Shown piece after piece: positions 1,031 through 18,272 of a stretch of DNA of 20,117 nucleotides. The notes under the pieces are model-generated. The model was not told the origin of the DNA, searched no databases, and worked only from the letters and a program-made list of their open reading frames with translations. Location of the stretch: contig KV425649.1 in assembly GCA_001632425.1 (NCBI GenBank), positions 1 through 20,117 on the forward strand, written 5' to 3'. Numbering within the stretch: the stretch's first letter is position 1; the number at the start of each line of letters is the position of its first letter. This stretch comes from Neolentinus lepideus HHB14362 ss-1. Its lineage: Eukaryota > Basidiomycota > Agaricomycetes > Gloeophyllales > Gloeophyllaceae. Both the position numbers and the translations under genes were made by a program.

Positions 1031-1378
1031 CCCATTCTGCAGCATTCTATATATATATCAATCTATTTTTATCATTGGAGGGGTCCCAAATGGGTCCAGG
1101 AATATATTCTGATTTATTCCGATTTTTCCGCATTTTCCCGGGCCAGAACCAAGGTCCTAGGCTATTATCACCAATATAGCAGCCTTTTTCCCACACTTGA
1201 CATCCAAACCCGATTGAGATCTTGATGCCTAGGTGCCGGGCAGTCCAATTCAAACCCAGCCCGGGTTCCGGGGCAATGTATGGCGCAGCCCGGGGCATTA
1301 ATACATTACGCTTAAAACATTACTGGGTATTGCATAAGGGTTTGTTAAAATATTAGACATGTAATACATTATTATTAC

Positions 1379-3003
1379 AGAACCGGCTGACTGCCAGGCG
1401 TCCCAGTGCTCTCCCCAGACTACGCCGATGCCCCAGGAAGTAGAAGCATCCACAAAGATGCCAAGGTCGTTCTCCATGCCACGCGGCGAGAGGTCACGAA
1501 AGGTGTTCGTCCGTACAAGCTGGGACTCCCACCAGACGAGATCGTTGACAACGGATTTGGGTGCCCACAGCTTAGCCCATTCGTTGCCCCCGAACTTCGA
1601 TGTCAGACGAAACAGGTTAGGGAGGTAGGGTCTGCCCAGAGGAAAGACAAACACAATGTGGCAGAGGGATCCTTGGATCTTCCGAACATCCTCCAACGAG
1701 ACCTGAGCCTTCTTGAATGCACGAACCGCATCCCGAACGCGCTGGAGGAACTTAAGCCTCTTCTCCTCAGGAAGAGAAACACGCTTCTGACCCAAGTCCC
1801 ACCGGAAGCCTAGGTAGGTAAAGAACGAGTCGAAGTCCTGGCCCTTCTCCTTGTGCCAAGGGATGCGAAGACACTCGATGCGCGCCAGCGCTTCAGCCTT
1901 GTCGTATGGGTAAACAAACGAGCCATCTTCACGAACGAGAGAGGGCATCCGGAAGGATGAAATGTCGTCTACCCACTTGACGGAGGGTCCGACACCAGTC
2001 TCCTTCCAGATGTCTAGGGCCGCGTTCGCGATCGAACCCGCGTTGCTCTCCGAGGAACAGCACCCGAATGGACAGGTGTGCTCCACCCAGAACCCGCGAA
2101 GGTCCTGGACCACGAACCAAGGCTTGTGGTCGGGCAAAATCGGGCAGGTTCGATGGAATTTGGCAATGTCGAGGGTCATCGCCTGCGTGCCCGCCGGGGC
2201 GTTGCAGATCTGTGGAAGAGTGGTAAGAAAAAGGCAAAGGATGTAAATGCGAACACGAGAGGGAAGAGCGTAATAGTATGCGCGCAATGAATGACGCGGT
2301 GATGGGGAAGACGGGGAAGGCGGGCGGGGAACGACCCGAGATGCAGCCAACGCGGGCATGAATGACCCGGGGCAAGGAGGGCGGGGAACGACCCTCATCC
2401 AACGCTCTCGGGCTAAGAAAGACCCAGAGGGGAAGTAGGAAAGGATGAATGTGACTCACAATCTCAGCTACGTCAAGCGCCGAGCCGAATCGAGTTGGAA
2501 ACTCGTCCGTGTTGATGTGGTCATTCGTCGAGATGTGCTCGCGGGATCCCTTAGAGAGATTGCGGCAGAGGCGCAGCTTGCACGGCTCACCTGGGCCCTG
2601 CGCCTGCTCGGAAATCATAAGCGGTGATGATTGGAATGGTCCCAGTATACGCTCGACCTGCTCCCGCATGAAGGGACCACTCATCCTCCCCGCGGCGGCC
2701 TCTTCATCCAGGTAATCTGCAATGTATGCTGCGTGTTTCGAACAGGAAGGGTGATTGGGGAAGATTACAGTTTTTGTAAGGGGGGTGGAGAAGTCCCCCA
2801 TAGGAAAGCCAGTTCTGAGTTTATGCGCTAGGTCTCTATGTTCGTCTAGAAGATTATATTTTACAAGTAGTTCTTCGAAAGCGCTGGCATCGTAGGGCGT
2901 AATGATACAGTTTCTGATGCAATCGCAGCAAGAGTCGTCAAGAAAAGATTGGCAGGAAGCAGATTTACAGGCTGAGCAAACTGAGCAAGTAGCAGGTGTC
3001 GTA
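1379..3003 (-). pseudogene. Truncated retroelement pol: DIRS-like reverse transcriptase and start of RNase H
   Basis: The minus-strand frame just past the gag stop encodes a retroelement polymerase. Visible landmarks in order are FEELLVKYNLL and TKTVIFPNHPS (N-terminal lead), GPFQSSP, the palm motif TLDIAKFHRTCP (catalytic Asp), PFGCCSSESNAG (motif B), and VKWVDDISSFR, an x-x-D-D motif C. These are followed by FLGFRWDL-like and GSLCHI..LGRPYLPNL segments, and finally GIFVDASTSWGIGVVWG, the start of a DIRS-type RNase H. Homology stops at about 1380 in the middle of RNase H, and no tyrosine recombinase or integrase follows. Two exons are needed: up to 2460 and from 2209, across a 250-nt intron. 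The frame is +1 relative to gag and remains open back to 3446 inside gag, so the true start is unclear. The DIRS-like assignment rests on RT pattern recall and is moderately certain; that this is an RT is nearly certain. Confidence 0.8.
2210..2459 (-). other. Predicted 250-nt intron within the retroelement pol gene
   Basis: On the minus strand the donor GTGAGT begins at 2459, right after codons for DVAEI. The acceptor TTCCACAG ends at 2210, before codons for ICNAPAGTQAM. Joining them restores a continuous RT palm lead-in and changes reading frame correctly. It is about five times longer than the introns of the other genes here. It carries a duplicated segment: the 14-mer GCGGGGAACGACCC (plus-strand reading) starts at 2324 and again at 2381. 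Both flanking frames stay open for some distance into it. Confidence 0.6.
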
Positions 3004-4452
3004 TCAGTTCGGCTTGGCCTTGCAGGACCAGGAGAAGGCGTGATGGTCGCCTGAGCCGCAAAACGAACAGATGTGTCGACGAGCAGGGTGGTCGGTCTGA
3101 CGGCAGGAGTTGGGGCCGGCCGCGTTCCATCGCCGGCAGATTTCCTCATCTCGTCCCCGCGCAAAGAGAGAGCCATTCCTCGCCTCCGCGAAGACTTGTC
3201 CCCCACCTGCAAATTGGGCCGCGGTGCAACCGGGGACCATGTGCCCCTTCCTAGCGCAGACAAGGCAGATGGAGGTCGAAGGGTCACCCCCACCGCCCAT
3301 CCGAAAGGGCGCGCGGCCTTGCGCGGGTCCAGCGCCTCCGCCGCGCGTGCGCCCAGCCGGCACTGGCTGAGCCCCACCCGCCTGAGCGGGAGCCCCGCGG
3401 GATGACTGTCCCTGCCTACCCGAGGGCGCCGGTGCAACCTGTCCAACCTGAATCACTCCATCCCGGATGAGCTCCGAGATTTCGGTGAACTTCATCTGAT
3501 AAAACATGGGATTAAAAGCAAAAGGAAGCGTACGGTATTGCCTGCGCAGCCGGATATCCATTTCGCGAAAGGTGGGCCACCTCTGCTCAAAGTATGGCTG
3601 CCGGATAAGCCAATCGAAGTGGTCCCTCCAACGCTGGACGAAGTCGTCGGCGCCGACCACCGCGCAGAAGCGGAGCCAGTTGTCGGCGGCTTCCCGCCAC
3701 TGCCCCGTGGAGAGAGCATGTTCGTTCATGAGCAAGATCGCCGAGAGGTCGATCACCCGGACCTTGGATTCCAGTTTTTTCTTTGGCATATCATCAGCAC
3801 TTTCCATAAATCTGTTCAGCTCCTCAAATGTGAAGATCGAAATGGGAAGATACTGGTTATTCCAGAATAAAATCTTGATTTCCTCGTGGAAGGAGCCTAG
3901 ACATGCCGGAACACTTGGGTCGGAAGGGATTTCCCCCACCGTAGTCCGTAGAGCCCGCGGCTTCTTCGAAGACCGAGCGCGGTCCTCATCATCATCCTCA
4001 ACATCGGCGGATCTCTTCTTGCTGAAGAACTCCTTGATGGCGCTCGGGTTCTTCGCGATCTCGAAGGCCATCTTGGTGACCGGAGACCAGCGCGATGGCG
4101 ACCCGATCGTGCTGAGGGATATCTGGGCTGGCGGGGTCTGGGGACGCACTGTCGGCGCTGGTGGCGCAGAAGACGCTCCTCCACCGTCCAGGTCGTCATC
4201 GCCACCCGGATGTATCGAGATCAAGGAGGCGAAGGACGAAACGCGCGAAAGCGTCCGTCCCGTGTCGGCAGATTGGCCTGACACGTCATCAGCACCCTCT
4301 TCGGCGAGTAGCGCCCGCTGCTGTCGTTTTAAATCGTTAGCCGAGCTACGGGACACATTCTCGGAGATCTTATCCCGCTCCGAGAGGCTGGACAGCCATT
4401 TCGACCAGACACCCGGGTCTGAGGTCTTATGTTTGGGGCCTGTGATTCTCAT
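3004..4452 (-). CDS. Retroelement gag-like protein with CCHC zinc knuckle
   Basis: A 482-residue protein if read from the ATG at 4452 (MRITGPKHK). The frame is open 73 codons further upstream, but that part is compositionally odd and probably leader sequence. Residues 1-170 are low-complexity and charged, with a basic SKKRSADVEDDDEDR stretch. Residues ~190-330 form a W/F/L-rich globular region. Then comes a Gly/Pro/Ala/Arg-rich linker and a perfect C-X2-C-X4-H-X4-C knuckle at ~396-409 (CLVCARKGHMVPGC). A second Cys/His cluster occupies ~439-479, ending HICSFCGSGDHHAF. Zinc knuckles and the adjoining RT mark it as nucleic-acid-binding Gag of the element. It ends about 20 codons before the recognisable start of pol, which is in the +1 frame. 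It appears intact, unlike pol. Confidence 0.75.
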   Translation of the reverse strand: MRITGPKHKTSDPGVWSKWLSSLSERDKISENVSRSSANDLKRQQRALLAEEGADDVSGQSADTGRTLSRVSSFASLISIHPGGDDDLDGGGASSAPPAPTVRPQTPPAQISLSTIGSPSRWSPVTKMAFEIAKNPSAIKEFFSKKRSADVEDDDEDRARSSKKPRALRTTVGEIPSDPSVPACLGSFHEEIKILFWNNQYLPISIFTFEELNRFMESADDMPKKKLESKVRVIDLSAILLMNEHALSTGQWREAADNWLRFCAVVGADDFVQRWRDHFDWLIRQPYFEQRWPTFREMDIRLRRQYRTLPFAFNPMFYQMKFTEISELIRDGVIQVGQVAPAPSGRQGQSSRGAPAQAGGAQPVPAGRTRGGGAGPAQGRAPFRMGGGGDPSTSICLVCARKGHMVPGCTAAQFAGGGQVFAEARNGSLFARGRDEEICRRWNAAGPNSCRQTDHPARRHICSFCGSGDHHAFSWSCKAKPN

Positions 4453-5239
4453 GGCGCGAAAAAATGAATAGCCGGCGTAAAAATAGTCCTTAGTCACGGC
4501 CGAAAACACAGAGAGGGTGGGTTGGAGAATCGAAGAGTGATAGCTCCGGGGATGGGGGTTGAAAAACGAAAAAGACGCGGCGTCGAGCCCAGCTGGCGAG
4601 CGACGCGTAATGGGGAAAGAAAAAGATGAGGGCGCGCTGAGCCCGAATCGAAGCAAAAGGGTGCGCGCCACATGGCGGACACGTGCTCAGCGCGCGTGGC
4701 CCATTCGCACGCTCTCTTAGCTTGGCTCGACATAAGTCTGAGCCGCTCGTGCCTCGCGTCATCCTTGTCCAGCAGCAATGTATTGCACTCAGATTAAAAT
4801 GCTATTACTACTCACCGGGAAGGGACCGGGTGACTTCCGGTGAGACCGACTCTTCCCATCACCTTCTCGCCGTTTGGGGCTGTCGCTGATCTTGGAGATC
4901 ATCAGATCTCGCTGACTAATCCGTGTAAACTTTGGGCACACTGGCTAGCCCAGACTCCTCTCCAGTCTCCTATCATCAGCTTCCGGCTTACCTGTTAGAG
5001 AGGGTATGCAAATGTCCTATTTATTAGCCTCCATTCTCTCATCTTAACATATAAAGTTCATTTTTTACTATACTTGTACCGCTTCAGATGTTGTTGATGC
5101 ACTCCCTTTCCACAAAAATCCGGAATTGTCTTTGCTCTTATTTGGCTTGTGGCAACACTGTTAACTTGGTCTGTTCCCATCTTTGTCAAGGTCTTCTTTC
5201 TGCCCAACAAGTACTGTTTGCGCTCGCCTACTCTGCTGT
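4453..5239. other. Intergenic region between retroelement gag and the RNB exonuclease gene
   Basis: This 787-bp stretch should hold the left end or leader of the minus-strand retroelement and the promoter of the plus-strand exonuclease gene. No convincing additional gene is seen. Visible structures are an 8-bp inverted repeat CTCACCGG...CCGGTGAG around 4812-4845 and a small hairpin GAGATC-ATCA-GATCTC near 4895-4910. No terminal repeat of the retroelement could be identified by eye, so its left boundary is unresolved. Confidence 0.5.
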
Positions 5240-8222
5240 ATGCATCGTCGCGCCGTGCAATGTGTTGCTGATCTACGACTTCATCCACTCAAGAACAGAA
5301 TCTCTTCTTCAAATACACAATGCCAAAAGAGAAATAGATCAGGCGCTACCGCCACCAAGCGAAAGGCAAAACAGCAGAACAAGACTTCTCCCGCACAGCT
5401 TGCAGACCACTGGACTCGCCTCCTAATAAATGCAGCTGCGGAAGGCGAAGAACGCCCAGGATGGAGTCATGTTACTGGTCGTGTAAGAGAGGAGGCTCGG
5501 CTGTCTGCCGAAGTAGTAGGACGTACTGGAGGCACTGCTGCAGTTATTACCCCGGTCAAGGAGGAGCATCAGGTCTTCTCGGCCCCAGCGGATGAAGATG
5601 GCGACGTGGAAGTATTGCAGGACTATAAACACACTTATTACAGACCTGGCGCGTTTGTCATCTTGAAAAGGTTGGCTTGGAAATATGTGCTTATACCCTG
5701 TTTAGCTGATCATGTGTCGCAGGAATTACCAAGAGATGCATGCTGTGGTACTTTTCCGCTACATGGTGAAAGCCGCAGAAATGGCTTTCTCTCTGACTTC
5801 GTCTGGTGCCTGCTTGGGTCATTATGTCGAGGATGTCGTCCACGCACTACCGGACTTCATTGATTCTACTCTTGCCGCGCGATGTGGTCGAGAAGAAGCC
5901 CCGCAGAGTAAAATTGAACATTCCGCTCGCGTGACGGTGCTCAAACGCCTTCGTGATATGGAACATATAATTGAAGGTGCCCAGGCGGCCATAAGCCGGA
6001 ACATCGGATGCTTATATGCATTGGTGAAGTCCCCGAAGCCAAACGAGTGGTCTGAGGTTACGCTGGACCAGGCAATCCGACTGGTACCCACGTCTCCCAA
6101 ATACCAGGGCACCATCCATGCTATGGGTGTGCATCGAGCCCTATTAGACCGATCCTTCGAGTTCCAGGCCGCTTCCGTGTACGAATCTCCGCCTATGCGT
6201 TTCTATGTTCGTCCCCAAGAGCATGTCGATACTATCAAGAAGATATCAGCAATAGTTCGCACGGCGAGTGACCAGGATGGCCCCATGCAAATTTTTGCAG
6301 CGAAAGCTCGCAAGATTATCACCGCTTCTCGGGAGAGGGCTGTAGCTTCTTGGACTGAACCTCCATCAGCCCGTCGGATGGATAGCGCTGTCTTCGACTC
6401 AACTGACTTGACGATCTTGACTTTCCTGCGTCGATCTATTCGAAAGACGCGTAAGATCCAGCCTGACCCCTATGCCCTATACGTATCCATCATCATCAGG
6501 ACGATAGGGCTGTATAACGACACTCAAATGGATCGTGGCGCGGAGCTTGTCCTTGAACAGCTCGGGCTCCTGGCGCCATGGGAGAGTGCGGAGGCGGAGC
6601 CTCGAGGACTACTCATGGACTATATGTCGACGAAACCAAAGGACGAGAGGTTCCTACCGCTTATGGGGCCAAAGGATGTCATCCCGTCACCAAGCTCAAC
6701 CACCGCCGCCTCGAAGCCAATGGGTCTCGATGACCTCTACACGCACGATCCCGTAGAGTCCATACGACACGACTTCGGTGACCTACCGGTGTACGTGATT
6801 GACGACGTTGATGCGAAAGAGCTAGACGACGGAATATCCGTCGAGCCCCTTTCCTCCGAGCCTGGATGTGCTTGGGTTCACGTTCACATTGCGGATCCTA
6901 CGTCCGTTCTTCCCCCTACGCACCGGATCTCTGCTGACGCCCGAGACAAAGTGTTTACTGCATACTATGTCCAGCGGACAGTGCCACTCCTAGGCGCGCT
7001 GCCCCAACTCGACAATCTTAGCTTGGGCGTTGTGTCAGCTACGGGACGGCCTGAACCCGTCATGACATTCAGTTTCAAGAGCGATGCGCATGGTAACATC
7101 CTGGATTACAAAGTGCGTGCCGGGATGGTGCGGAATGTGCGGCGGATGTCCTACGAGGAAGTCGATCGCACCTTGGACTTCCAAGCCCGTAGACGCACAT
7201 ACCCCTTCGGTGAACCAGAGTGGCTGGAGACCAGCTTCGTGGCCAGACGTTCTGTCACTGAAGCAGACAAGGAGAATTTATTAGCGCTACGCTCCATTGC
7301 AGATGGCTTGTTTGATCATGCACGAAGATCTGGAATATTCGTTATCAATAATGGGTATGCAACGATTTCAACATCAAATGCGCTTCCCCCCTCTCCTGAC
7401 GATATGACAACACCCGTTGAATTTCGAGGCTTCCCGACGCTCAAATACGCCGTTGAGGAGTACGTGATATATACTCAGGGTGCGAGAAGGATCGTATCGG
7501 AGTGCATGAAGGCAGCTTGTCGCGTCGCGTCGCGATTTGGAAAGGAGCACAACATTCCTTTGATGCGCAGGATGCAGCCGCAACCGGTCACACCAACGGA
7601 GGCAGCATTTCAGGACTTACTAAATGCACGGGATGAGGATCTGGTGGTGAGTTATACGGATATACTAAGGACAGGTGTCTCTCCCGCCTCAGGCAGATAT
7701 GTCCTTGAGCCTGCCCAGCATTGGTTCGTGGGGGCCAGTGCGGACGAGGGGTACGTCCGGGTCACATCGCCTTTGCGGCGCTACTACGATCTTGTGTCCC
7801 ACTGGCAGCTCAAGCACGCACTGATGCCGTCGTGCCCAGCTTTCTCCCTGTCGTTCATGGAGCAGCTTCTGAAGGAGGTGGACTACAAGACGAAGACGCA
7901 CATGAAGAGCGAGAGGGAGCACACGTTCAATTGGGCACTCAAATTTATTCAGCGCTGGCAGAAGGACCCACGCTTCGCCAACGAACGGCGGAAGAACGAT
8001 ATCTTGGAGAATTTGACAGGGCAGATACAAGACCCCCCTTCGTTTTCTCAGTTCAAGGGGACCTCGATGACGAAGATCTATGTACATGAGCTTGCCATCC
8101 ACGGGTATCTAGTCCATCTGCGTCGGGCAGCGGTGGACTATGTCGTTGGTGAAACTATCCCTGTGCGCATGGAGCCGTTGGATGTTGTTCAGGCCAGCGA
8201 ACTTATGTTCACCGAGCGGTAG
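5240..8222 (+). CDS. DSS1: Mitochondrial RNase II-family 3'-5' exoribonuclease (Dss1/cyt-4 type)
   Basis: Two exons, 5240-5670 and 5723-8222, give 976 residues, close to yeast Dss1 (969). The 52-nt intron (GTTGGC...TCGCAG, branch-like GCTGAT) splits an Arg codon; joining it gives RPGAFVILKRNYQEM. The ATG at 5240 opens a basic, hydroxylated N-terminus (MHRRAVQCVADLRLH) plausible as a mitochondrial targeting peptide. The RNB domain starts near residue 493: YVIDDVDAKELDDGIS at ~501-516 is the metal-binding acidic cluster (D504, E510, D512, D513). LPQLDNLSLG follows, and TSPLRRYYDLVSHWQL at ~825-840 is the conserved RNB C-terminal signature. By family knowledge this is the nuclease of the mitochondrial degradosome, which works with the Suv3 helicase in RNA turnover and maturation. 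The position usually Asp in bacterial RNase II is Glu here (E510). Further upstream non-coding exons cannot be excluded. Confidence 0.95.
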
Positions 8223-12346: not shown

Positions 12347-14398
12347 ATGGATTCTTCAAGTATAACGTCGACGATCGTAAATACTCAGCAGACCAGCCAT
12401 GCCAACGAAATCAAGGTGTTGTCATTTGCACACACGCTAGGGCACCCACTAACAGACGTGTTCAGCGCAAACTCGAGGATGCCTTGCAAAGTTTGGATGA
12501 AGCTGTCGGACCCATCTCAAGTTCATCAATCCACCCTCCGCCTTCGAAAAGACCTCGCGTAGCCAGGTCTATCTACTCAACTCTAGCAAAGTACGGGATC
12601 AAGACCAAACACGACAGTCCGTCAGTCATGCCCTACCTTTTCGCACCGCGTCTGCAATATTGAACTTACCGCCCTCGGGTCCCGGTCGACTCCAAATCCT
12701 GTAGAACTTCTTCTATTGGCAAATCGGAGTCCCTGTCCAAAGCACCTCATCTTTCTGCGATCCTCTCCCGTGCCGCCACTCGTACTCGAAAAGCTCTGCC
12801 GTTTAGGTTCTCCTCTGATGACACTGCAATCCCTACATCCCCTTCATACGGCGAGTATCGACCGTCATCCACTCAATCTTTCATGTTACGGCTTGCGACG
12901 TATAAGCTGCCCACATACTCGAACAAGCCGAACGCAATTGATGCAGTCGCGGCTGCCAAGTGCGGATGGATAAACGACGGGAAGGAGCGACTCGTGTGCG
13001 CGATGTGCGATGCGTCGTGGGTGCTTGCGGGGCGGGACGGACTCTCTAGAGAAGCGGGTGCGTAGCGTTGGAGTGCATACGGTAGGTCCCGGTTGTCAAC
13101 GAAATGTTTGTAGCGAATACCCTGGTGGAGAAGCAACGCATCGGTCTGGTTCAGAACCATAAGGATGGGTGCCCATGGAAGACACGGCAGTGTGATAGTG
13201 CGTATATCAGCCGATGACGAGACACTTACTCTCAGCTTACTTGTGATAGACGCTGTGTATCGTATACCAATGAGATCGCCGGCTGCTATGGCGAGGGACC
13301 TCAAGGCCCGTGCGATCCAATTAAACCCTCTCCTTGAAGCTGTACAAGTCAAGCATCCTTTGGTGGGTTGACCTTGTGTCTCTTAACACATTGTCGTCTC
13401 ATTCGTTTGTTGATAGTCGTCCTCGCAAGTACACGCGCTGGTGTCTACAATTAGGTCGGTATCAAGCAAGCCACCAACACTAGACTTGGGTCTCGATGAA
13501 GACAGTGCATCTCATAGGCCCTCGCCCGAACAGTCACACGATGCTGTATCTGAGGCAGAATCGGAGCCCTCTGAAACGGCCATCCTGGCCTCCCTTTTTG
13601 GCTGGGAAATAGCCCCTCCTCCACCACCACCCTCCCGCCGCACGTCTTCATTCTCCCGCGTAAGCTCTACAGCATCGTCGAGAGCCGGGACGCCATCCCT
13701 CTGTAGCCCGCCGTCGGTGAGTGCGCTATGGGGCAGTGGCCGCGCACAGACACCTCCGATAATATCTCATCCCAAGAGGCTTGGCTCTCATTTGTCCAGC
13801 ACGTCTGGTTCAGCTGCGGGAGGCAAGCATGAGATGTTATTGCATTGTCCCCTCTGCCAACGTCGGGTGGGGTTGTGGGCGTTTACACCACAAGGTGAAG
13901 ACGAGCGGGCTACTACGCCATCGAGCACTTCCTCATCGCGGCCGGCAAGACCTCAGCGACAATTCGACCTGCTCTTGGAGCACAGGAACTACTGTCCCTA
14001 CGTGGTCAAGTCGAGTGTCGTCCCGGCCCTGCCTACCCAGATGCAGGGCATCAACGCGAACTTCGCATCGATGTCGCAGGGTGCTGTGGAGGGATGGAGA
14101 GCGGTGTTGCAGACCGTGTCGCGGCATGGGCTAGCAGAGCGGCGCCGGAGGAGGTCAGCTTTGACCCGGCAACGAACGTTGACTGGAAGTGAAGTCGGTG
14201 CAAGTTCGGGCGAAGCACTGCCTCAAGAGGGCGAAGGTGATTCGGACATGGTTATTGACAGCGTCGAGGCGATGGTTGCCGAGGTGAAGACTCGCGGGGT
14301 ACGTTCGTTCTACGCAGTTGCGTGATTAGCTAGTAGCTAAACTCACCTTCCGCTAGGGCAAAGACATCCTAAAATATGTAAAGGGATTACTTGGTTAG
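12347..14398 (+). CDS. C3HC/Rsm1 zinc-finger protein, NIPA/ZC3HC1 (Pml39) family
   Basis: Seven exons: 12347-12415, 12466-12620, 12705-13057, 13114-13197, 13250-13362, 13417-14298 and 14357-14398, giving 565 residues. All introns are GT-AG, 50-84 nt. The start has a good context (GAGCCATGG). Residues ~24-62 hold RKLEDALQSLDEAV and SIYSTLAKYGIKTK, typical of fungal members. Module 1 (zf-C3HC) runs ~132-228: LRLATYKLPTYSNKP, CGW, then C173-x2-C176 and H208-x3-C212-x-W. Module 2 (Rsm1) runs ~395-490: HCPLCQRRVGLW with C402-x2-C405 and H447-x3-C451. Long Ser/Pro-rich segments separate and follow them. The last 13 residues (GKDILKYVKGLLG) come from a tiny final exon. Family members (human ZC3HC1, yeast Pml39) are nuclear-basket proteins, and S. 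pombe Rsm1 acts in mRNA export. A nuclear-envelope role is therefore inferred. The exon 2/3 junction (donor GTCAGT) is the least certain. Confidence 0.9.
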
Positions 14399-14664: not shown

Positions 14665-16090
14665 ATGCCCGGTGGGTACGCTCCTCTGCCTAATCTGCGT
14701 TCTGCGCCGGACGCGGAACGGGAGATGGACGACGCATTCGAGTCGGACGGTGAAGAAGACCAGAACTTGGCGGAGATCAGGCCGTTGACGAGCGGGTACA
14801 ACAATACGCACCATGCCTCTCACGCTGAGGACGATGGTACTAGTCATGATATCCTTAATGCTCCTGGAGGATATGACTTTGAGAGGGATTATGACTTCCC
14901 ACCGCCGGGATCGCCACCTGCACCTGCTGCGCGTGCGTTACCCAATGACCTCGGCAACACGAACGGGGTGATACCTACATCTGTGGTTCGGCCACCTCTT
15001 CCCCGCCAATCGTTCGTCAGGAGAGCTGTCGGTGCATTATTGCCCAGTCATTACATCCGTGTGCCTACGGAGCCAGGCTACGTTAGGCCAGTGGGAGCAG
15101 GGATCGAGAATGATGGGGTATTTGCGAACGTTGTTGCAAAACCATCTCGAGGTGTTGAGGTGCAAGGCGACGACGGGAATATGTATGTGGTCCCGGAAGA
15201 GGCACAAAAGGAGACTCCCCCCGTAAGCTGTTGTCCTCTCCATGATCCCCTCATACAAAGACACTAACGACGTCGACCCGTAGTCCTATGAAGCTGCACG
15301 TCTCGACGCAGCTCCTCCATACTGGGAGACCACTGTTCACGCCCCTGCTGCCCTCGATGGCTCCGACATGATTGTTAATGACCTGCCTACGGGATCTATG
15401 CTACAGTTCGCTGCTAACTTCTTCACTTCATTCTTCTTCCAGTTCCCTGGCTTCCTTCTCACGTACCTCCTGCATACAACACATGCAGCTAAGTTTGGCT
15501 CGCGAGCGGGGCTGGGTTTGACTCTCATTCAGTTTGGGTTTTACTCTCGTACTCAGAGGATGGAGATGGGGGACAGTGGGAGTGGCTCTGAGTCATTACT
15601 TCTGGGTCACGATTCAGAAGGGTGGTCGTCGGAGACCATCCCGGATGCAAGCAATGCTACCATGAGCATAGGCAATGCCACGATGCCCGACGACACGATA
15701 GTCTACAATGGGGCCTTCAGCAGCATACCTTCGAGAGACTGGCTTGCTTTCATTCTCATGACGCTAGGTTCGTGCCCTGACTGCTGCTTCCATTCTATTG
15801 ACTCACTGACTGCATCTTATCTGATAGGTTGGATGCTCCTATTGACGTCCACACTTGGTTTCTGGCGTGTGAAGCGGTGGGAGCGGTCCATCCGTTCAGC
15901 GTCTCAGCCGCAGGCTCTCACTCCTGACGAACTCGAGCACGACAGAGCTGTGCGGCAGAACTTGGAAAACGTATTCGGCATTCCGCTCGACCAACAGAAC
16001 GCCGAGGACCGTCAGCTCGCGATCAGCCCCGAGGCTCTTGCTGCTGAAGAGCGGTTAACGAGGGACTTGCGGCAGGCAGGTCTGTTGTAG
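14665..16090 (+). CDS. BSD2: Bsd2/NDFIP-like membrane adaptor for Nedd4-type ubiquitin ligase
   Basis: Three exons: 14665-15222, 15284-15767 and 15828-16090, giving 434 residues. The introns are 61 and 60 nt, the second splitting a Gly codon. Residues 1-215 are polar, acidic and Pro-rich (cytosolic). Then come MLQFAANFFTSFFFQFPGFL at ~225-249 (TM1), a TM2 with GLGLTLIQFGFY at ~257-273, and WLAFILMTLGWMLLLTSTLG at ~339-358 (TM3). The C-terminal tail is charged and helical. Three helices after a long N-tail, with the FFFQFPGFLLTYLLHTTHA block, mark the NEDD4/Bsd2 family. In yeast these bring Rsp5 to metal transporters and misfolded membrane proteins for vacuolar sorting. An APPYW at 196-200 is a near-PPxY, possibly the ligase-binding site. 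The TM2-TM3 loop is longer than usual by recall and holds two NAT sequons (N310, N317). Confidence 0.9.
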
Positions 16091-16526
16091 TCGATGTTTT
16101 GTTCTGTTCTGTTCTGTTCTGTTCAAGATTGATATCTCCTTATTGCAATATCAATTCGCATAATTTCGGATTCGAGCATATTATTTGATCATCATTTTTG
16201 GTTTATATCTGTTGTACGTGCCATGTCGCATCAGGTAGTATTGGACATGGAAGTGTAATCTAACCTCGTCGTCATGTTGGATTGAGTGTTTCGTGGGTAC
16301 TTCTTCATACCGGGATGCTTCGCGTATGTCCAAGCAACTTGCCCAGAGGCTAGGTCGTACATCTGCATGCGCCTTCACTGTTAGTGCTAAAATCTGGCCG
16401 CCATTACAACTACGGTTTTCGCGCTGATTAAATGTCTCGCTTTGTTCCACTAGCAAGGGCCCAGCGGCGCATCACCGTATACATGCGCTCACGACAATCT
16501 ATAGTCTGGCTTGTCCCTGCTTGACC
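16091..16526. other. Intergenic: Bsd2 3' region and HEN1 promoter
   Basis: This 436-bp stretch begins with a GTTCT microsatellite and is otherwise unremarkable. An open frame of 91 codons on the minus strand (16181-16456) has no recognisable protein features. No TATA element or RNA gene is obvious. Confidence 0.5.
16101..16124. repeat. GTTCT pentanucleotide microsatellite
   Basis: Four full and one partial copies of GTTCT run directly from 16101 to 16124, 10 bp after the Bsd2 stop codon and so probably in its 3' UTR. Such short arrays are prone to length variation between strains. Confidence 0.9.
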
Positions 16527-18106
16527 ATGGACTTCAACGACCTCTCGGACGAGCGGCCTGAATTGCGGGTGACTTTTTCACCAAACTTGTACCTTCAACG
16601 GAGAGGATGGGTACTCAATCAACTGAGGCACGAGCACGTAACGCAGGCGAGCACTACCCATCTATGTTCTGCACCATGAAACTGATGAATTATACAGGTA
16701 CTAGACGTCGGGTGCGGCGAAGGCGAACTCCTCGCATGTCTCTGCCAACCCGCACCGTGGCTGCCCCCGCCACCCGCGGACTCCCTCCCAGATGCCGCGT
16801 CCGGATCGATATACTCAGATCCCTCCACTAGCACTCGGCTATATTACTATCCTGTACCCAATACGCTACCTGACAAGATCGCAAATCTACATCCCTCGCA
16901 TCTCGCCGGCCTCGACGTCTCGCAGCTAGATCTCCAAATCGCGGTGGAAGGCACGGCGCCGCGGCCCGCCATGCATTGGCACGAGAATGTCCGATGGGAG
17001 CCGCTGAAGGTTGATATATGGAAAGGAGGACTGGAGGTAGGGAACGAGGAGTTCGTAGGCGTGGAGTGTATCGTGGCGATGGAAGTGTACGTGTGCATGC
17101 ATATGTATCTCCTGGATTCAAGTTGAACAGCGATGGTTATAGCGTAGAACATCTGAATGAAGATGTCTTACTCGAGTTCGCCCCCATCCTCCTAGGCGTA
17201 TACCATCCTCGGATCCTGCTAGTGACGACACCCAATTTCACATTCAACGCAAGATTCCATCCTCCTGACACTCCCGAATCACGGGTAGGTGGCTACCCAG
17301 ACCCCACGGGGAGGACAGACCGCATCTTTAGACACCACGATCACAAATTCGAGTGGACTGTTGACGAATTTAAGCAGTGGTGCACGAGCATCGCAGAAGA
17401 GTGGGGATATACGGTCGATGTTGATGGGGTAGGAAAGGCGGTCGAGCCAGATGAATGGGGGAGAGAAGAAAAGCTGGGATACGCGAGTCAAGTAGCAAAA
17501 TTCACACGCATAGAAGGCGAGGAGTGGCGTGCTCTGCGAGCGAGGGAGGCTAGAGAGGTTGCAAAGAGAGCTAGTCAGAAGACTAAGCACGAGCTCTTGA
17601 AGACACACCAGTACAACGCGCATCCCCAAACCCGCCAGCCCGTATCCCTCGATGAAATAGGAGAAGCAATCAAATCGAAGATGCAGGATTTCCGACGAGC
17701 TGTGGTGAGACTGGAAGAGCTCTGGTTCGAAAACGAGATCGCCGTCATGTGTGGTGGCTGGTTCGAGTTCTTGCTTGCAGCAGTCGAGCGGCATAAGGAT
17801 CTAGAATTGATGACGGAGGAGGGGGGAGGCCGAGCTGAATGGGAGGTTGAGCTTATCGGCGGGTTGAAGGAAGAGCCCGAGCCGTTGTGGGATCAACTCG
17901 AACAAGATGAGTGGGAGTCCGAAGAAACGGTCACGGAGAGCGGCACAGCTGAGGCGAGAGAAGATCCCGGTATTCCACCTGATTGGGGTGTGTCGTGGGG
18001 TGCTGGTGAGGCTACAGCTGCGGACACGGGACAGTCGGGATGGGGGAACGGGGACGGCTGGGGCAATGTAGAGGCGCGTACCGGTAGTAGCATAGGCTGG
18101 TCATAA
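16527..18106 (+). CDS. HEN1: HEN1-type small-RNA 3'-terminal 2'-O-methyltransferase with GW/WG-rich tail
   Basis: Three exons: 16527-16646, 16698-17086 and 17143-18106, giving 490 residues. HEN1 enzymes methylate the 2'-OH of the 3' nucleotide of small RNAs using S-adenosylmethionine, protecting them from tailing and decay. Residues 17-26 (TFSPNLYLQR) match the FxPP-QR lead, with Asn for the second Pro. VLDVGCGEGELL (41-52) is the SAM-binding loop. EVVEH (E169, E172, H173) is the HEN1-specific metal site and is completed only by splicing. TPNFTFNARF (199-208) and FRHHDHKFEW (232-241) supply the remaining active-site block, including a metal-binding His. After ~350 the protein is acidic, and residues 450-490 carry five Trp in GW/WG context (W451, W455, W470, W476, W489). 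No double-stranded-RNA-binding or La domain is present, unlike plant HEN1. Intron 1 seems to use a GC donor; the alternative GT donor at 16638 would delete three residues. Confidence 0.92.
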
Positions 18107-18272
18107 CATTCAAAGCACGGAAACGCATGCGTGATATCTCTGAATTAATGCAGAATATACAGAAATGCTACAAATGCTGACATCAAGGGTGAATTCCGTG
18201 TTAACGCATGTGACATACATGGTAGATGATGCCAGCCGGGAAAAACCAGTCTCTCCAAATCTCATTCCGCTT

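Follow-up and report, generated by a model that had tools for sequence, protein, structure and literature searches.

A conserved Trp/Gly-rich tail on the small-RNA methyltransferase HEN1 of Agaricomycetes, a candidate Argonaute hook

Results

The HEN1 gene and its neighbours

The window, the whole stretch of DNA analysed here, comprises 20,117 nt from Neolentinus lepideus HHB14362 ss-1, an agaricomycete of the order Gloeophyllales, whose genome assembly consists of 33.8 Mb in 168 contigs. A gene for HEN1 lies on the plus strand at 16527-18106. The splice model of the gene, with GT..AG introns, contains three exons and encodes a protein of 487 residues (Table 1). Several other coding stretches of the window have Pfam matches; no RNAi gene besides HEN1 was seen among the coding stretches, and no tRNA was found in the window. 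By eye, long frames on the minus strand at 1298-4686 look like mobile-element coding sequence; the two minus-strand frames scanned in this region matched no Pfam family at E up to 0.01.

Table 1. Features of the window, with the basis of each assignment
Feature	Position	Strand	Basis or remark
RNB exoribonuclease	5706-8222	+	Pfam match
Cytochrome P450	11197-11745	+	Pfam match
NuBaID (zf-C3HC and NuBaID_C)	12664-14325	+	Pfam match
NEDD4/Bsd2	15284-16090	+	Pfam match
HEN1 exon 1	16527-16637	+	start ATG at 16527; frame open through GT..AG junctions
HEN1 exon 2, SAM-binding part with VLDVGCGEGE	16698-17086	+	splice model
HEN1 exon 3, stop codon 18104-18106	17143-18106	+	within 363-codon open frame 17015-18106
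E166, E169, H170, H234	17082-17344	+	stretch spans intron 2, 17087-17142
Second folded stretch, about residues 294-407	17522-17863	+	pLDDT in P0002 model
Acidic Trp/Gly tail (hook-like region), residues 408-487	17864-18103	+	conservation; predicted disorder in P0002
Five Gly-flanked Trp, W448, W452, W467, W473, W486	17984-18100	+	codon positions in exon 3

In a protein alignment, orthologue P0002 reads on alike across the splice junctions of HEN1, and the translation contains the VLDVGCGEGE motif, as does the consensus of 71 orthologues. The sole match of the exon-3 frame in its own assembly is itself. The GenBank protein of N. lepideus HHB14362 ss-1, P0003, is 100% identical in the alignment. 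In the GenBank annotation the frame does not end before residue 450, a possibility that the earlier note on this DNA had considered for transcripts; the annotated P0003 reaches the same C-terminal residues.

The GenBank model (342 residues) has MERRTGG as its first residues and leaves out a portion of the catalytic core (region 16527-17200), so that the SAM-binding half is absent from it. Compared with P0003, the 487-residue spliced model restores a reading like that of the orthologues.

Two trivial origins of the C-terminal tail were ruled out. The tail is not a splicing artefact, because it lies within one long open frame, and because the GenBank model differs at the 5' side and yet has identical C-terminal residues. 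Nor does it stem from a DNA tandem repeat, since there is none within the tail; the only tandem array in 16500-18200 is located at 17053-17093, at the end of exon 2.

HEN1 identity and folded core

All seven PDB sequence matches of N. lepideus HEN1 are HEN1-type methyltransferase domains; two of them are titled only methyltransferase type 12 and are bacterial CtHen1 in the Foldseek listing. Foldseek with the P0002 model gave HEN1 domains of human, plant and bacteria as the eleven best matches. A Pfam scan of the N. lepideus protein gave nothing at E up to 0.001. Judged by sequence and modelled fold, the gene encodes a HEN1 small-RNA methyltransferase, predicted to act as a 2'-O-methyltransferase on small-RNA 3' ends.

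Structure, conservation and Pfam families were assessed on alignment A1, which comprises 71 of the 120 listed orthologues. The columns of E166, E169 and H170 are at least 90% kept among these 71 orthologues, and the column of H234 is invariant. By alignment with Arabidopsis HEN1, we take these four residues to be the catalytic ones.

A second stretch between the methyltransferase domain and the tail is confidently folded in the P0002 model, with ten-residue pLDDT means of 82-98, and lies outside the part of HEN1 that is matched in the PDB. In the PDB sequence search with N. lepideus HEN1, the RNA-binding part of the plant enzyme was left unmatched.

The tail in N. lepideus

The tail (residues 408-487, 80 aa) contains 7 Trp, no Phe, no Tyr, 13 Gly, 13 Glu and 6 Asp. 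Five of the Trp are flanked by Gly: W448 and W452 precede a Gly, W467 and W473 have Gly on both sides, and W486 follows a Gly. The earlier note had described these five Trp and an acidic stretch ahead of them. All five are present, but its numbers (W451, W455, W470, W476 and W489) are each 3 too high; the acidic stretch is as described and contains the remaining W416 and W424. The tail is predicted to be intrinsically disordered, as judged on orthologue P0002, in which the ten-residue pLDDT means of the counterpart are 31-53 from residue 421 on.

Set against its own composition, the N. lepideus tail by itself stands out only modestly. Specifically, within-tail shuffles of this single sequence give 2.0 Gly-flanked Trp against the 5 seen (p ~0.02), and the case for the tail thus rests on the orthologues. 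As a genomic control we used 235,505 bases in 25 stretches of the same genome, five of them Argonaute loci. The 545 control frames run from stop to stop, are at least 100 aa long (23 are at least 300 aa) and mix coding with non-coding sequence. None of them has at least five Gly-flanked Trp per 80-aa window (maximum 3), and 3 of the 545 reach a plain count of at least seven Trp per 80-aa window.

Conservation of the tail across orthologues

Orthologues were pooled from the best 120 of 320 matches and the best 120 of 471 matches, the query of the second search being the most divergent orthologue; the sample is therefore nearest-first. The later search added 32 orthologues. In total there are 152 sequences, with the gene of the window counted once, and 142 tails of at least 50 aa. 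Shorter tails were excluded (8 of 121 and 2 of 32), most of them, 8 of the 10, from records marked partial. P0003 is counted among the 113 tails used for motif counts below and is left out of the 142, of the 58 and of the Trp-neutral pair test. Look-up of listed orthologues confirmed the orders Jaapiales, Boletales, Polyporales, Agaricales and Amylocorticiales; the named orthologues from the later search are presumably Agaricomycetes, as recognised by name.

The 142 full tails are all net acidic. At least one Gly-flanked Trp is present in 139 of them, at least two in 124 and at least three in 90, so that the tail Trp are not absent from close orthologues, an outcome that the earlier note had named as contrary to its proposal. 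At least five Trp of any kind occur in 137 of the 142, the Trp:Phe:Tyr ratio across them is 993:142:157, and the median spacing between tail Trp is 11 residues. The three full tails with no Gly-flanked Trp are P0087, P0096 and P0102, of which P0087 and P0102 are marked partial.

Among the residues directly next to tail Trp, Gly is the most strongly enriched, before as well as after the Trp. In the first orthologue set, 349 of 790 tail Trp adjoin Gly (tails of at least 50 aa). Among 58 non-redundant tails (core identity below 70%), 180 of 396 Trp adjoin Gly, compared with 81 +/- 7.5 expected from within-tail shuffles (2000 shuffles, maximum 105). Preference for a Gly neighbour is 2.2-fold for Trp and 0.6- to 1.1-fold for the other residues, Trp being the only one of nine tested that has it. 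The 30 orthologues unique to the later search behave alike, with 95 of 210 Trp adjoining Gly against 42 +/- 5.8 expected (shuffle maximum 64); their tails range from 59 to 160 aa; all 30 have at least one Gly-flanked Trp, and 27 have two or more.

Retention of tail residues was compared in pairwise alignments in which Trp was scored neutrally and thus cannot drive the alignment. The pairs are all 176 and 286 in the two closer bands of core identity and 300 sampled in the most distant. At 70-90% core identity, Trp is the best kept of 15 tail residues by raw identity (918 of 1165, 79%), with Pro next at 67%. At 60-70%, Trp (47%) is second to Pro (49%) by raw identity, and at 50-60% its raw identity of 23% is slightly below that of Asp, Gly, Pro and Ser. 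After background correction, Trp in the 70-90% band is kept 11-fold, below Leu, Ile and Lys at 14- to 21-fold. Judged from these alignments, tail Trp is strongly but not uniquely kept, and what is unique to Trp is the preference for Gly. At the level of sequence, the Trp/Gly tail is conserved in Agaricomycete HEN1.

Argonautes of the same genome

The earlier note had also allowed for a genome that lacks Argonaute. This is not the case for N. lepideus; Piwi-domain matches lie on five contigs, RdRP matches on four and Dicer_dimer matches on three. The spliced Argonaute on contig C47 has 1001 residues, is letter-for-letter identical to the GenBank N. lepideus protein P0121, and aligns through the pocket region to human AGO3 and AGO1. 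Its slicer tetrad is present and is kept in 119-120 of the best 120 of 708 relatives.

The human AGO2 pocket mutants P590G, K660S and R688S are in use (PMC11336974). At the corresponding positions the C47 Argonaute has Pro, Leu and Arg. Among the best 120 of 708 C47 relatives, the P590 position is Pro in 103 and the R688 position is Lys in 54 and Arg in 49, while the K660 position is Leu in 119. Further positions of the Trp pockets are F587, V591, Y654, F659 and E695. In the same 120 relatives, F587 and F659 vary, V591 is replaced by Thr in 119, Y654 in most cases by Lys, Arg or Gln, and E695 in most by Asp, Ser or Asn. The Leu at K660 and the changes at these further positions count against a hook. 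A 2025 survey describes the TRP3 pocket as distinctly conserved in fungi and fungal Trp pockets as variable overall (PMC12477606).

The other loci were read exon by exon. The C147 Argonaute (G000:C147:20318-21359) has Lys at 590 and Leu at 688; in the C65 Argonaute the corresponding residues are Asn and Arg. Position 590 is Pro in C71 and position 688 is Lys in C11, the partner position being not read with certainty in either. Among the readable positions of the five Argonaute loci, Pro590 and a basic residue at 688 thus occur together only in C47. If hooks matter, the C147 Argonaute may be a non-binder and a natural control.

Discussion

We consider it probable that the HEN1 tail is a multivalent Argonaute hook that ties 3'-end methylation to loaded Argonaute. 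The likeness to a hook, as proposed in the earlier note, is supported by conservation in orthologues, because the three contrary outcomes that it had listed did not turn up, as far as they could be tested. Specifically, the acidic C-terminal region with its GW/WG motifs, predicted to be disordered, would act as the hook. Its Trp would enter one surface pocket, or two, on the PIWI lobe of an Argonaute of the slicer type, for which the protein on contig C47 is the likeliest candidate. The methyltransferase would be tethered to loaded complexes, near the 3' end of the guide, and would methylate that end once the PAZ domain releases the guide. Methylated guides would then be protected from trimming.

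The fungal enzyme can be compared with HEN1 of other lineages. Arabidopsis HEN1 (PDB 3htx) has the methyltransferase fold and the catalytic residues in common with it, but the solved plant chain has 950 residues against 487, and only the methyltransferase part matches. With about half the solved plant chain, fungal HEN1 should need another way to find its substrates. The animal and ciliate enzymes (HENMT1, DmHen1/Pimet, HENN-1 and Tetrahymena Hen1p) are like fungal HEN1 in being without the plant RNA-binding part, and none of them is known to carry a GW/WG tail. Their substrates are described as single-stranded, Argonaute-bound small RNAs (PMC3330095, PMC5666084), and plant HEN1 is described as acting on duplexes, animal HEN1 on single strands (PMC3330095). 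Given that the plant-type RNA-binding part has no match in fungal HEN1 and that animal HEN1 works on single-stranded RNA, it is plausible that the fungal enzyme has some way to locate loaded guides.

Argonaute hooks named in the literature include GW182/TNRC6, Tas3, the largest subunit of plant Pol V, and Wag1p and CnjBp (PMC2904775, PMC5666084, PMC12477606). Like these, the HEN1 tail is a stretch of an RNAi protein, predicted to be disordered, in which Gly-flanked Trp recur; unlike them, the candidate hook forms the end of the small-RNA methyltransferase itself. In Tetrahymena, the GW repeats that bind Twi1p are reported to sit on the separate proteins Wag1p and CnjBp (PMC5666084), apart from Hen1p, whereas in the fungi the GW/WG region is on HEN1. 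Membership in the GW182/TNRC6 family by descent was rejected, because no GW182 family is among the Pfam matches of the 71 HEN1 orthologues at E up to 1 and a PDB sequence search with the tail gave nothing at E up to 10. On these comparisons, any likeness of the tail to GW182 is convergent.

A different partner deserves consideration, although we think it rather unlikely. The tail would then be a conserved Trp-based tail for an RNAi factor (Dicer or RdRP), an adaptor reading Trp-acidic motifs or a condensate scaffold, and HEN1 would meet Argonaute only indirectly. Plant HEN1 has been reported to contact Dicer and HYL1, which we count in favour of such a partner. Gly adjoins 349 of 790 tail Trp, and many of the others stand next to acidic residues instead; conservation of the Argonaute pockets is partial, and fungal pockets are described as variable (PMC12477606). 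However, Gly is the top neighbour of tail Trp on both sides and Trp alone has this preference, which is the signature of an Argonaute hook, and the substrates of HEN1 end up in Argonaute.

The tail could instead act on HEN1 or on its RNA, as an acidic, Trp-rich autoinhibitory segment or RNA mimic that folds back on the methyltransferase. The net acidity of 142 of 142 full tails would fit a basic RNA-binding face, and the tail is attached to the enzyme itself. We nevertheless regard this as very unlikely, since the P0002 model has no confident tail structure or docking (pLDDT means of 31-53) and an RNA mimic leaves the Gly preference of Trp unexplained. That the tail is a fast-evolving, low-complexity segment, rich in Trp and Gly by chance and with no specific partner, fits its variable length (59-160 aa in 30 orthologues) and the p of ~0.02 for the N. 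lepideus tail alone, but is likewise very unlikely, and composition alone was rejected as the main reading, given the enrichment of Gly-flanked Trp over shuffles in the 58 and in the 30 sequences, the 918 of 1165 Trp retained between close orthologues when Trp was scored neutrally, the 0 of 545 comparable frames and the lack of a DNA repeat in the tail.

Published work bears on the Argonaute hook from several sides. In Caenorhabditis elegans, HENN-1 and ERGO-1 are reported absent from each other's pull-downs (PMC3330095), which we count against a stable HEN1-Argonaute complex. In Rhizophagus, NaIO4-resistant small RNAs and AGO-column small RNAs are reported to have similar profiles; 54 of 631 enriched small-RNA loci are enriched both as 2'-O-methylated and as AGO-loaded (PMC8647823), an overlap that we count against the hook. 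Substrate choice of animal HEN1 is described as not fully resolved (PMC3330095), and for Nematostella a HEN1-Argonaute contact was proposed for guide-strand methylation (PMC6114907).

A conserved hook on HEN1, if true, would be such an Argonaute contact, placed in a tail outside the catalytic domain, and would give, for one large lineage, a physical answer to how HEN1 picks its substrates. Hook proteins would then include an enzyme, other GW proteins, if any, would have HEN1 as a competitor for their pockets, and fungal Argonautes would turn out to use the Trp pockets that the survey judged variable (PMC12477606). We see an even chance that a built-in hook of Agaricomycete HEN1 couples methylation to both the loading and the identity of Argonaute, such that guides of Argonautes with usable pockets are methylated and those of others are not. 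While HEN1 and Argonaute hooks are both established, a combination of the two that is conserved across a fungal class appears to be new. The earlier note knew of no such tail on HEN1, and no report of one was found among the open-licence papers listed.

Short motifs recur within the tails. In 37 of 113 tails (for example P0014, P0034 and P0100), GW[DE]GD stands among the final 30 residues as a near-constant C-terminal element, often followed by acidic residues and Thr or Ser, and a GDVSWNGSE-like motif recurs upstream of it in orthologue tails. It is possible that these two motifs are single high-affinity sites.
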